Source: Deltaproteobacteria bacterium (lineage in GTDB: Bacteria; Desulfobacterota; GWC2-55-46). From it: a stretch of 64,000 bases of DNA. Within the stretch, counting starts at the first letter, position 1; the number at the start of each line of letters is the position of its first letter. The notes under the pieces were generated by a model, which saw only the letters and a list, made by a program, of their open reading frames with translations, ran no database searches and had not been told where the DNA came from. Made by a program: the position numbers and the translations under genes. The stretch covers positions 1 through 64,000 of the forward strand of contig JACRNL010000004.1 of NCBI GenBank assembly GCA_016234935.1, given 5' to 3'. Shown in pieces: positions 931-62,109 of this stretch.

Positions 931-3303
931 ATGTTCAACTTCATTAAAAAAAGCCTGCATTTAAAGATTCTCCTTCTCATGATCGGCATCATGACCCTGG
1001 CCATGGTCATTGCCATCACATGGGAATTGAAGAACCGTGAGAACGCGCTCATTGAGGAAAATATCCGGACGAGCAGATTCATGGCGAAACCTATATTGAG
1101 CGACATATACGATCACATGACCGAGGGGAGGGCCGACCTCGTGCGCTATCTTATAAAATCCCTCGGAAACATGAAGGACATAGATCTGCAGATAGTAAGA
1201 AACAACGGCGTGGAGGAGGCATTCAAAGACCTCAAGACCATACGCGCCGTTGAAAAAGAGTACGGCAGGATACGGCCGGAGTGGCTCGCCGACCACCCTG
1301 ATGAGCAAAACAACAGGGCAAAGGGAGTGGACTCCGCCAAATTTCAGAGCGCCCTCAGGTCATACAGGGAGGACTGGAACCGCGGCCCGACATATTACAT
1401 CGAAAAGGACAAAACAGGAAAAACATCCTTCACCTATCTGCTGCCCATCGAGAAAAATGCCGCATGCAACGGCTGCCACGCAAGCGAAGGGGCGCGCGGC
1501 ATACTCATGATCTCGACGCCGATGGACAGCGCCTACGGCGCGCTTAACCGGACGAGGAACCAGTGGATCGTCTCCGGCATACTCGGCATACTGGCCGGCT
1601 CCCTGCTTCTGTCGCTCCTCATCAGAAGGTCTATCACCGGGCCGGTAAAGAAAAACATGGAGGTAATCAAGCGGATAACCGACGGCAAAGGCGGGATACA
1701 CGAGCGCGTGGAGGCGTCATCTGAGGACGAGATAGGATACCTCGCAAGCGCCTTCAACAACATGCTTGACGCCCTCGAAAAAAGGGAGCAGGAAAACAAG
1801 AAACTCTTTGCAATGGTCGAAAAGAGCAAGGAGGAGTGGGTGGCGACATTTGACGCCATCCATGACCTCATCATGATCCACAGCCCCGACAGAGGGATAT
1901 TAAAGGTCAACAAGACGCTCGCGCTTAAACTGGGGCTTACGCCCGGCGAGCTTATCGGCAAAACATGCTGCGACGTGCTCTACAAGGCGGATAGCCGGCA
2001 CGAAAACTGCCTTGACAGTTTGACCCTCGGGGCGGGAGAGGCCTCCTGCATAGAGGCGGACGACCTCGCGATAGAAGGCACTTACGAAATAACGAGCTTC
2101 CCCGTGCACGACGAGCGCGGCAATATACAGGCTGTCGTGCACATCGCAAGGGACGTCACCAACGAAAAGATCCTGCGCCAGCAGCTCCTTCATTCAGAAA
2201 AAATATCAAGCGTAGGCAAGCTCGTGGCCGGCATAGCGCACGAGCTCAACAACCCGCTGATGGGCATAATGGGGTTCAGCCAGATACTCATAGACATGCC
2301 CGGCGACACGCGGATAGAGGCGGTCAAGGACAAGCTCAGGAAGATCTATCACGAATCGCTGAGGACGTCCAAGATAGTCCAGAACCTGCTCACCTTCGCG
2401 CGCACGAAAAAAACTGAGCGCGAATACAGAAGCGTCAACGACCTGCTTGAACATACCCTCGAACTCAAGGAATATTCGCTGAAGTCCAACAACATCGAGG
2501 TCGTCCGCGCGTTCGAGCCGGACCTGCCCAGGACCATGATAGACATCTATCAGATTCAGCAGGTCTTCATAAACATCCTGAACAACGCCGAAGACGCGAT
2601 GACGGCCCGCGGCGGCAGCGGCAGGATCGAGGTGAAGACGAACAAGGTCAGAAGCCGCATCAGGATGAGTTTTACGGACAACGGCCCGGGCATACCCGAT
2701 CAGATAATCCACAAGGTCTTTGACCCGTTCTTCACGACAAAGGACGTCGGCAAGGGCACCGGCCTCGGCCTTTCCATCACGCACGGCATCGTCACCGAGC
2801 ACGGCGGCTCCATAGAGATAACCTCTCCCGAAGACGGCGGCACGCGAGTCACCGTGGAGCTGCCCATCGTGGAACAGGAGCAGTGGACCGAGATACAGGA
2901 AGCCCTGGAAAACGAAACTCAGCAGGAGAAAATGCCCGGCGAGAAGGTGCTTATCGTTGACGATGAAAAGAACATACGGGAGGCCCTTGCGGACATTCTA
3001 ACGCACAAAGGCTTCCATGTGGAGATAGCGCGTGACGGCCAGGAGGCCCTTGAGCATCTTGAGCGGGTCAAATTCTCCATGCTCCTGACAGACGTCAAGA
3101 TGCCGACATTAAGCGGCATAGACCTCTACGACGCGGTGCAGAGGAAGCACCCTTACCTGAAGGACAGAACCATCATCCTGACCGGCGACGTCTTCAGCCA
3201 GAGCATACGCGAGTTCCTGGACAAGACGGGCTGTCCGTATATCCTGAAGCCCTTTGCAATGAAAGACCTCATGGCTATCATCAACAAGTTATTAAGCAAT
3301 TGA
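931..3303 (+). CDS. Hybrid sensor histidine kinase with DUF3365/Tll0287-like c-heme sensor, HAMP, PAS, HisKA/HATPase and C-terminal receiver
   Basis: CNGCH motif, HAMP region, GIAHELNNPLMGI H-box, GTGLGLS, C-terminal LIVDDEKNIR...LLTDVKMP receiver. Confidence 0.9.
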   Translation: MFNFIKKSLHLKILLLMIGIMTLAMVIAITWELKNRENALIEENIRTSRFMAKPILSDIYDHMTEGRADLVRYLIKSLGNMKDIDLQIVRNNGVEEAFKDLKTIRAVEKEYGRIRPEWLADHPDEQNNRAKGVDSAKFQSALRSYREDWNRGPTYYIEKDKTGKTSFTYLLPIEKNAACNGCHASEGARGILMISTPMDSAYGALNRTRNQWIVSGILGILAGSLLLSLLIRRSITGPVKKNMEVIKRITDGKGGIHERVEASSEDEIGYLASAFNNMLDALEKREQENKKLFAMVEKSKEEWVATFDAIHDLIMIHSPDRGILKVNKTLALKLGLTPGELIGKTCCDVLYKADSRHENCLDSLTLGAGEASCIEADDLAIEGTYEITSFPVHDERGNIQAVVHIARDVTNEKILRQQLLHSEKISSVGKLVAGIAHELNNPLMGIMGFSQILIDMPGDTRIEAVKDKLRKIYHESLRTSKIVQNLLTFARTKKTEREYRSVNDLLEHTLELKEYSLKSNNIEVVRAFEPDLPRTMIDIYQIQQVFINILNNAEDAMTARGGSGRIEVKTNKVRSRIRMSFTDNGPGIPDQIIHKVFDPFFTTKDVGKGTGLGLSITHGIVTEHGGSIEITSPEDGGTRVTVELPIVEQEQWTEIQEALENETQQEKMPGEKVLIVDDEKNIREALADILTHKGFHVEIARDGQEALEHLERVKFSMLLTDVKMPTLSGIDLYDAVQRKHPYLKDRTIILTGDVFSQSIREFLDKTGCPYILKPFAMKDLMAIINKLLSN

Positions 3304-13364: not shown

Positions 13365-14477
13365 GTGCGCGGGGGAATATTTTTGAAAAAGGTCTTTATA
13401 AAGGACTTGAAAGAAAAGGATCAGATCCATGACTCCTTTCTTGTCACAAGAAAGGACACCGGCATAAGCAAGAACGGCAAGCCCTATCTGAACCTCAAGG
13501 TAATAGACTCAAGCGGCGAGATGGACGGCCGCGTATGGGACGACGCCGAGGATATAGCCAAAAAGTTCAATAAAGACGACGTGGTTTTTATAAAAGGCTT
13601 TGCCGTGGCGTATCTCGGCGGCCTGCAGATGAACGTCACCGACGTGCGCAGACTAACGGAGGCTGACTACTCTCTGAAGGATTACCTGCCCTCTTCAAAA
13701 AGGGATTTTAAGGAAATGGCCTCGGAGCTTGACGGGATCATCGCCCGGATGACGGACAGGCGCCTCAGGGGCCTTCTGACATCCATATTCAACGACCCTG
13801 ATATCCGGCCAAAATTTCTCATCGCGCCCGCGGCAAAGGCCATGCACCACCCTTACGTGGGCGGCCTTGTCGAGCACACCCTTTCCATCTGCGGCCTGGT
13901 GGAAAAGATATCCGTCCACTACAACGCGGCGGTCAACAAAGACCTTCTCACGGCGGGCGCGCTTCTTCACGATATCGGCAAGATTCACGAACTTTCCTAC
14001 CAGAGGTCTTTTGACTACACCGACGAGGGCAGGCTCCTTGGGCACATCACCATCGGCGTGGAGCTTGTGGAGGAGAAAATAAGACAGGCCAAGGACTTCC
14101 CGCGCGAGCTCGCCGTGCTTTTAAAGCACATGATACTCAGCCACCACGGGCAGCTTGAATTCGGCTCGCCCAAGAGGCCGAAGACCATCGAGGCCGTGAT
14201 ACTGTCATACCTTGACGACATGGACGCGAAGGTGGCGGCCATCAGCGCCATGTCCGCAAACCCCGCGGATACTGGATCGAACTGGACGGCGTATCAAAAA
14301 TTAGGATTTGAACGCGCCATCTACAAGGGCGGAGCGCCTTCCCCCGCTTCAGACACGCGAGGGCAGGCTGAGGATGACGCCCCGAATGAAGACAACGCCA
14401 GAGACGCCGCAGAAGCGGCAGAGGTAAAAAAAGCCGCAATGAATATAGACCTCGACCTTTTCAAAAAACGCATCTGA
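13365..14477 (+). CDS. OB-fold + HD-domain 3'-5' exoribonuclease, YhaM-like (start may be TTG at 13383)
   Basis: N-terminal OB-fold; HHPYVGGLVEHTLS, GALLHDIGKIHEL, LKHMILSHHGQLEFGSPKRP. Confidence 0.85.
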   Translation: MRGGIFLKKVFIKDLKEKDQIHDSFLVTRKDTGISKNGKPYLNLKVIDSSGEMDGRVWDDAEDIAKKFNKDDVVFIKGFAVAYLGGLQMNVTDVRRLTEADYSLKDYLPSSKRDFKEMASELDGIIARMTDRRLRGLLTSIFNDPDIRPKFLIAPAAKAMHHPYVGGLVEHTLSICGLVEKISVHYNAAVNKDLLTAGALLHDIGKIHELSYQRSFDYTDEGRLLGHITIGVELVEEKIRQAKDFPRELAVLLKHMILSHHGQLEFGSPKRPKTIEAVILSYLDDMDAKVAAISAMSANPADTGSNWTAYQKLGFERAIYKGGAPSPASDTRGQAEDDAPNEDNARDAAEAAEVKKAAMNIDLDLFKKRI

Positions 14478-29071: not shown

Positions 29072-29491
29072 TTATTTTATCAAAATCGGCCCCTTCCACT
29101 TCCTCATTCCGCCCATCACGTTGTAGACCTTCTTGTAGCCGTTTGCCGTGAGCATCGCCCCAAGCTCATCGCCCATCGGCCCGCCGTGGCAGATAAATAC
29201 GATAGTGTCCTTCGGGGACAGCTCCTTTAAGATTCTCTGCTTTGCGCCGTCGTACGGGATGTTTACGGCGCCCGGCACATGTCCGTCCTTGAAAAGCTCC
29301 GGCTCCCTCAGGTCAACGATGACGAGCTTTTGTCCGCTTTTCATCATCTTCTCAAGCTCCGGCCCGTCTATCCTCATGTGGCCCGCGGCAAAGGCCGCCC
29401 GGCAGGCGATGAAGATAAAAGCGAGCAGCAAGGCTGATGCCCGCATCCATGTCACCGCGGGCTTTAAGCGGGGATTCGCATGCTTTTTCAT
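29072..29491 (-). CDS. Rhodanese-like domain protein, exported
   Basis: Signal peptide; LVIVDLREPELFKDGHVPGAVNIPYD; active-site FICHGG. Confidence 0.88.
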   Translation of the reverse strand: MKKHANPRLKPAVTWMRASALLLAFIFIACRAAFAAGHMRIDGPELEKMMKSGQKLVIVDLREPELFKDGHVPGAVNIPYDGAKQRILKELSPKDTIVFICHGGPMGDELGAMLTANGYKKVYNVMGGMRKWKGPILIK

Positions 29492-53692: not shown

Positions 53693-53804
53693 AGCGCAAG
53701 CCCAGCACCACTTTCCGCTGCCAATGCCTGCCCTCGCGTGTCTAACGCGGGGGTTTGTTTTACCATGAACTCTTGACAATAGAAAGTGGTGCTGGGCTTG
53801 CGCT
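53693..53804. repeat. Palindromic element family B, copy 1
   Basis: Perfect 23-bp inverted arms AGCGCAAGCCCAGCACCACTTTC / GAAAGTGGTGCTGGGCTTGCGCT; shared loop segment CATGAACTCTTG. Confidence 0.9.
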
Positions 53805-54095: not shown

Positions 54096-54191
54096 GGAAG
54101 GGGCAAGGGCCCGGCGGCCCTGCAGGTCTTCAAAACCTGTTTATCACCTTTTACGGAGATGGGTGGGTTCGACTCCCGCCCCCTTCCGCCA
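54096..54191 (+). tRNA. selC: tRNA-Sec (anticodon TCA)
   Basis: 96 nt; 8-bp acceptor GGAAGGGG/CCCCTTCC, anticodon loop CTTCAAA, long variable arm, encoded CCA. Confidence 0.93.
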
Positions 54192-54193
54192 TA

Positions 54194-54285
54194 AATACAA
54201 GAAGCCCGGCATCACTTTCCATCGCCAAGAGTTCATGCGTAATACAAACGTTGGCGACGGAAAGTGATGCCGGGCTTCTTGTATT
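54194..54285. repeat. Palindromic element family B, copy 2, 3 nt downstream of tRNA-Sec
   Basis: Perfect 27-bp arms AATACAAGAAGCCCGGCATCACTTTCC / GGAAAGTGATGCCGGGCTTCTTGTATT; loop GAGTTCATGCGTAATACAAACG. Confidence 0.92.
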
Positions 54286-58733: not shown

Positions 58734-59042
58734 ATGCTTGTCGAATTCAGCATTATTCCAATAGGCACAGGGGAGAGTTTAGGTGACGCGATAGCCGGCG
58801 TATTGAAGCTCGTCGATGAAAGCATGCTCCCCTACAAGGCGAACGCGATGGGAACCGTCATAGAAGGCAGCTGGGACGATTGCATGGGACTCATCAAGAA
58901 ATGCCACGAAGAGGTCATGAAAACGGCTCCGCGGCTTGTCTCGAATATTTCGATAGACCTGAGACCGGGTAAACCCCAGGACCGTCTGAACGAAAAGCTG
59001 AAATCAATCGAAAAGAGGCTCGGAAAGAAGTTAAAGGGTTAG
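58734..59042 (+). CDS. MTH1187 family (YkoF-like, thiamine-binding) protein
   Basis: MLVEFSIIPIGTGESLGDAIAGVLKLVDESMLPYKANAMGTVIEG. Confidence 0.9.
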   Translation: MLVEFSIIPIGTGESLGDAIAGVLKLVDESMLPYKANAMGTVIEGSWDDCMGLIKKCHEEVMKTAPRLVSNISIDLRPGKPQDRLNEKLKSIEKRLGKKLKG

Positions 59043-59297
59043 CAGGTTGCGGAAAAACTCAAAATCTGGTCAGACTGCTCAAATCTTCCCATTGCAATAA
59101 TAAAGACGCAATGGGAACCCAGCCAGATGCAAGGCGTCAAGCCCAGCACCACTTTCCGTTGCCAACGCTTGTATTATGCATGAACTCTTGGCGATGGAAA
59201 GTGGTGCTGGGGAGGAACGAGGCGCACTTTGTTGTGCGCCGTTCGTTCCGAACGACGAAGACAACGCCGCAGATGGGGTTTTTTCAGCAGCCTGATA
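59041..59297. repeat. Composite repeat: family A element (reverse orientation) carrying family B palindrome
   Basis: Family A ends CAGGTTGCGGAAAAACTC ... TTTTTTCAGCAGCCTG with family B copy 3 inside. Confidence 0.8.
59142..59211. repeat. Palindromic element family B, copy 3
   Basis: 16-bp perfect arms CCCAGCACCACTTTCC/GGAAAGTGGTGCTGGG; loop is the reverse complement of copy 2 loop with few changes. Confidence 0.9.
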
Positions 59298-62040: not shown

Positions 62041-62109
62041 TCCGGCAGGCTGCAACTGGGGCTTCCCCGCTAAAAGCTCGCGGGGACATGTTTTGAGCAG
62101 CCTGCCGGA
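62041..62109. repeat. Inverted repeat in greA leader, 13-bp arms TCCGGCAGGCTGC/GCAGCCTGCCGGA
   Basis: Perfect arms plus internal CCCCGC...GCGGGG stem. Confidence 0.75.

Follow-up and report, generated by a model that had tools for sequence, protein, structure and literature searches.

The site at 59041-59297 of the window, the whole 64,000-nucleotide stretch of DNA analysed here, holds a composite repeat in which a palindrome of one family (B) lies inside a copy of another (A) (Table 1). Its coordinates and letters match the first-pass annotation, which had read a palindrome of about 75 nt nested in A; the nesting stands, but the palindrome measures 70 bp. Its two inverted arms, 59142-59165 and 59188-59211, are 24 nt each and 92% complementary and enclose a 22-nt spacer. 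The fold of the 257-nt stretch reaches z = -7.0 against dinucleotide shuffles, and within this fold the B site in A falls in an internal loop rather than at a tip. Family A copy 1, with which the site had been compared, does read CAGATACAAGGCGTCGAG-GAGTAAGGAATGAGGCG with no interruption. An extra hairpin (module C), described at first as absent from copies 1 and 2, is real and is missing from these two window copies, but it proved to be a common module of A that also occurs in nine B-free copies.

Table 1 Features of the composite repeat, of further B copies in the window and of B-bearing RNase P RNA genes in relatives
Feature	Position	Strand	Remarks
Family A repeat, composite filled copy	59043-59294	+	ends CAGGTTGCGGAAAAAC...GTTTTTTCAGCAGCCTG; flanks TTAG / ATAG
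Hairpin module C of A	59088-59115	+	CCCATTGC...GCAATGGG; elsewhere a short AAAGTT stretch instead
AAG, left flank of B	59139-59141	+	GAG in other filled copies
Family B palindrome, nested element	59142-59211	.	70 bp
GAG, right flank of B	59212-59214	+	possibly a 3-nt repeat of the left flank, or a remnant of GAGGAGTGAG
Central hairpin of family A	59215-59249	+	GGAACGAGGCGCAC...GTGCGCCGTTCGTTCC; from the fold
Third B copy in the window	53698-53799	+	E1 hairpin in loop; complementary flanks AGCGCAAG / CTTGCGCT
E1 in the loop of the third B copy	53727-53753	+	
Second B copy in the window	54205-54277	.	about 18 nt downstream of the tRNA-Sec gene (54096-54187); flanks AATACAAGAAG / CTTCTTGTATT, 11 perfectly complementary bases
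RNase P RNA gene of a relative, B-capped helices (L165)	1501-2045		
RNase P RNA gene of a relative, B-capped helices (L156)	1501-2031		
RNase P RNA gene of a relative, B-capped helices (L158)	1501-1935		
RNase P RNA gene of a relative, B-capped helices (L167)		-	B inside B

Copies of A were gathered from the source genome (2.15 Mb in 15 contigs) both by a search with the 59041-59297 stretch, which gave 89 matching pieces, and from fetched stretches. Comparison of empty and filled sites across this genome, as the first-pass annotation had proposed, yielded five filled and 29 uninterrupted junctions. Nine of the 29 junctions without B, in a scan of the fetched loci, belong to copies with the C hairpin, so the palindrome is not an integral part of every A copy of this subtype; in one such copy (L005) the junction runs continuously as GGCGTCGAG-GAGTGAGGAACGAGG. 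The filled junctions are those of the window, L002, L003 and L004, together with L013, which holds another B subtype and has a slightly different left edge. The filled form can be written GTC(G/A)AG[B, CCC...GGG]GAGGAACGAGG and the empty form GTCGAGGAGTGAGGAACGAGG, the commonest empty junction being GTCGAG-GAGT-GAGGAACGAGG. Read from these alignments, the junction would reflect either a 3-nt GAG repeat around B or four nucleotides (GAGT) lost or replaced by B; no clean target-site duplication is readable at the site.

Relative to A, B lies in opposite orientations in L002 and L004 and in L001 and L003, and L002 and L003 carry an identical B core despite this difference, which points to two separate uses of the junction or to an inversion of the loop between its arms. 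Near-identical left halves are common to three filled A copies, and A+B units were probably copied together; since the A copies themselves spread, these units may stem from fewer insertions than there are copies. Several other A copies are flanked, as read by eye, by TTAG/TTAG, TTAA/TTAA or CTAA/CTAA, a pattern resembling a target duplication of 4 bp (YTAR), and A itself is for this reason probably a separate MITE-like element. An IS4/IS5-type transposase was considered as the partner of A and rejected, as PF01609 is missing from 23 of 24 genomes, including this one. The A copy at L004 has a further hairpin (GACCCATCCGAAGGATGGGTG) to the left of the C hairpin, not present in the other A copies seen.

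Outside A, B leads an existence of its own. A covariance model built from 51 copies gave 104 strand-wise matches in the source genome, corresponding to about 52 copies, of which about 45 lie outside A. Across the order, B occurs in eight of 48 genomes (the source genome and seven others), which represent two families and seven genera, and 40 genomes have none; seven B-rich genomes carry 15 to at least 53 copies each (counts for G003 and G006 being lower bounds), and the eighth, G013, a single one. A scan of 85,000 species' genomes for the exact arms matched only groundwater Deltaproteobacteria metagenome-assembled genomes (JACRNO, JACRCM, JACRCI and JACRCC), with isolate names all tagged Pr3, and the same exact pattern, sought as a sign of a phage vehicle, had no match in viral contigs. 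All 51 aligned arms start with (C/T)CC(A/G/C)GC, and their flanks differ between sites. The stem shows compensatory change, 15 of its 22 pairs being altered on both sides where shuffles give 8.2 ± 1.4, a signal that is lost when the partner is slid; the arm sequence, beyond structure alone, is also conserved across genera. Taken by comparison, these data establish B as an independent, patchy, multi-copy element with empty and filled sites. The original proposal that B was inserted into a pre-existing A and that it moves is borne out by the 29 paralogous empty junctions and the copies outside A, and is further backed by empty/filled comparisons at other loci.

These other loci show B at the tips of hairpins. 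Outside CCC...GGG, the flanks of B copies in the source genome form complementary runs with a mean of 2.43, against 0.80 ± 0.23 for re-paired flanks, and excluding the A copies and a second host repeat gives 2.50 against 0.73 ± 0.16; in this reduced set, six runs of at least 5 were found where 0.28 were expected. The second and third window copies have such flanks (Table 1), and another extreme pair is CGGCTTG[B]CAAGCCG. Among the relatives, there is no rise in the average flush run (P = 0.15), but a stem somewhere in the flanks is raised to a level that 0 of 1000 shuffles reached. The pattern can be read from the second host repeat. Two empty copies in the source genome read CCTACCCTCC-TTTTCTAAA-GGAGGAATAAA and CCTACCCTCC-TTTTCCAAA-GGAGGGATAAA, forming the hairpins CCTCC-TTTTCTAAA-GGAGG and CCTCC-TTTTCCAAA-GGAGG, and six filled copies read CCTCC-[B]-GGAGG (GGACG in one) with B of at least three subtypes; the host loop is missing exactly and the base of the stem is retained.

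The RNase P RNA genes (rnpB) of relatives show the same arrangement. B occupies helices P3, P12 and P19 in G006 and likewise in G039, which belongs to a different family, and P12 in G010; in G038, the loop of the B in P3 encloses another B, which has CACG on either side. The helix positions of the insertions come from the Rfam RF00010 alignment, and the naming of P3, P12 and P19 also presumes the bacterial type A RNase P structure. In B-free relatives, the native hairpin of the P12 stretch spans 20-46 nt and that of the P19 stretch 19-34 nt, the one exception being G032; its 75-nt P19 hairpin was considered as another mobile family and rejected, as it is single-copy in that genome. Compared in this way, intergenic stems and P3, P12 and P19 of RNase P RNA show that B occupies the tips of other hairpins, with the host stem base kept and the loop replaced. 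In G039, the cores of the P12 and P19 copies agree to 97%, and the P3 copy comes closest (86%) to a copy lying between genes of the same genome, so its rnpB copies have at least two sources. Three B copies in one 400-nt gene are more than even landing over intergenic DNA would give, by our own estimate about 0.1 or less (taking intergenic DNA as a tenth of the genome and 25 to 53 copies per genome). This clustering would reflect either a choice of target or the survival of tolerated insertions, and selection alone could account for the restriction of B in rnpB to tolerated hairpin tips.

The rnpB of the source genome has no B. In the rnpB of G003 (L168), everything between P3 and P12 is missing and a single B sits at the join; as this would leave the catalytic core incomplete, the gene is read as a probable assembly error in which two B copies were misjoined. 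Among other structural RNAs, a cobalamin riboswitch of the source genome (L026, 1371-1631) carries B in one hairpin arm, directly upstream of an open reading frame that, as read by eye, resembles a cobalamin-synthesis gene. As a possible target of B, the tmRNA is of normal length (349-355 nt) in the source genome, G003 and G010, and the search returned no tmRNA above the cut-off in G006, G018, G038 and G039.

Altogether, B has not simply been inserted at random: its tendency is to take the place of a hairpin tip already there, and it belongs to a set of several hairpin families that nest in each other. That B moves is demonstrated in the comparative sense, movement being deduced by comparison among mostly draft genomes of many contigs in which short repeats are prone to misjoins. 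Our preferred reading, to which we assign a probability of roughly 0.7, is that a non-autonomous mobile hairpin, B, moved at the window site into an A repeat that was older and spread separately, and that B would spread at the DNA level by hairpin-tip replacement, a mode of spread that we infer from the sites above. The tip of a host hairpin would be exposed or cut, after which repair or renewed copying would draw on a B hairpin at another locus, by cut-hairpin repair or template switching, with joining through the CC(C)/GG(G) ends common to B and many host stems; alternatively, an enzyme that recognises hairpins could bring about the same exchange. The resulting DNA would fold back on itself, so that it would be tolerated in terminators, riboswitches and ribozymes. 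Among candidate movers, three enzyme families were searched in the source genome (G000), with no Y1_Tnp (PF01797, 0 matches), DDE_Tnp_1 (PF01609) or RVT_1 gene found. Counter to tip replacement, the 4-bp CACG repeat at the nested B of G038 and the possible 3-bp repeat in A are a better fit to plain insertion, and the internal-loop position of the site in A also counts against it.

Plain insertion with a short target duplication is what would be seen if B were a MITE or REPIN-like element mobilised in trans by a classical hairpin-preferring transposase, the loss of loops being secondary. Besides the repeats around B in G038 and in A, the terminal inverted repeats of B, its all-or-none distribution and an excess of 4-nt direct repeats (4 against 0.57 expected, three of the four also palindromic) speak for such a transposase. 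We nevertheless think it rather unlikely, because the source genome lacks both transposase families and Y1_Tnp is also missing from the B-rich G006, G018 and G039, because the sites have no common duplication length or target word, and because precisely the loop is absent from filled copies of the second host repeat. A RAYT-driven REP was rejected on the absence of Y1_Tnp from the source genome and the lack of association with B across 40 genomes. We regard as improbable that B is not mobile but a transcription terminator, or a hairpin with some other function, whose copies selection has multiplied: one copy does lie about 18 nt past tRNA-Sec and some (L062, L036) have a T run on one side, but conservation of arm sequence across genera goes beyond structure, copies are embedded in rnpB, in a riboswitch, in other repeats and in another B, and 40 related genomes do without it. 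Structural RNA genes among the targets would suit copying through RNA, in which a B transcript is inserted and then reverse transcribed; with RVT_1 absent from the source genome and six other B-rich genomes, and five RVT_1-bearing genomes devoid of B, this is very improbable. Least credible is that B is integral to an A subtype and was lost from the uninterrupted copies, since, for all the near-identical left halves that suggest joint copying of A+B, there are 29 continuous junctions, nine of them in the same subtype, some 45 B copies outside A, and another B subtype in L013.

How small palindromic repeats move without a transposase is a long-standing question. The small dispersed repeats of cyanobacteria are very short, palindromic, mobile and nested, and have been reported also in structured RNA genes; we know of no transposase for them. 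They belong to unrelated organisms, and their likeness to B is one of general description; they are named in PMC3116915. REP and REPIN sequences with RAYTs (PMC3116915, PMC3733652) resemble B in having two inverted arms in one hairpin, in being mostly intergenic and non-autonomous, and in being sometimes inserted mutually. The inverted arms of B do form one hairpin (a 22-pair stem with covariation), and the source genome has no Y1_Tnp and the 51 aligned arms no GTAG/CGTC tag at their foot. Of the features of a classical MITE, B has the terminal inverted repeats; a target duplication of constant length was found neither by the direct-repeat test nor in the empty/filled pairs, which show loop loss and one 4-bp repeat. 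For a partner transposon with matching ends, the search covered DDE_Tnp_1 and Y1_Tnp, and the source genome has neither.

Mobile hairpins are known from mitochondria, in the form of yeast GC clusters, fungal double-hairpin elements and sponge repetitive hairpin-forming elements (PMC4478555, PMC2800124). Like B, these are short, sporadic and present in many copies, have conserved stems and variable loops, and merge together, and their insertions in rRNA genes stay in the transcript. B differs in being bacterial and 70 bp long, in replacing tips, and in lying in RNase P RNA and a riboswitch; moreover, the abundant yeast GC clusters have AG or ACT repeats at their flanks (PMC4478555, PMC2800124), whereas B has no common duplication. 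B is itself dispersed, with conserved stems and variable loops, and lies inside structural RNA genes, and by analogy it may be regarded as a mobile hairpin repeat that would work like the mitochondrial ones; we place it as a member of none of these families. Empty and filled sites exist both among paralogous hairpins and among RNase P RNA orthologues, and they lead to a testable rule, in which the tip is replaced and the base kept. Should this rule hold, it would explain how the length-variable helices of an essential ribozyme grow in one step while its core is kept.

A further member of this nested set is E1, a 27-bp hairpin (CCTGCCCTCGCRTGYCTRAAGCGGGGG) with 127 matches in the source genome at no more than 3 mismatches, against 0 for the reversed control. 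At least six B copies have E1 in their loop; two A copies carry it between GACGAAG and ACAACG, with nothing lost; and it lies inside a second small hairpin, E2, whose loops hold it at L002 and L020. It also occurs in frame within genes: at 14341-14367, inside the gene of an HD-domain-like protein (13365-14477); in a RimO gene (L004), where its nine residues fall in a segment that RimO 4JC0 lacks; and in a heptosyltransferase-like gene (L013). No in-frame copy of B came to notice. Rickettsia palindromic elements (PMC10969869), compared here by description, likewise comprise several bacterial palindromic families found in frame in genes, but are about 150 bp long and peptide-encoding, as against the hairpin-seeking B of 70 bp and E1 of 27 bp. 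Among 40 genomes searched, E1 is present in all seven B-rich genomes and one other and is absent from G013, with its single B (co-occurrence table 7/1/1/31; one-sided Fisher P ~3e-6, calculated by hand). The co-occurrence of E1 and B could reflect shared machinery, shared horizontal transfer or a shared sampling site, and it may hint at common machinery or at exchange among the bacteria of a single groundwater community. More tentatively, and with more doubt than confidence, we propose that DNA in these bacteria is mobilised by a process not described before, in which the tips of hairpins are recognised and exchanged for hairpin repeats. It would serve at least two families, B and E1, found in the same genomes, and would have remodelled a riboswitch and, more than once, outer helices of RNase P RNA. 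As for E2 (like ACATGTCCCCGCAGGCTTTAAGCGGGGA), copies are present in the window at 62063-62091, inside an A-like repeat, and at 29447-29474.
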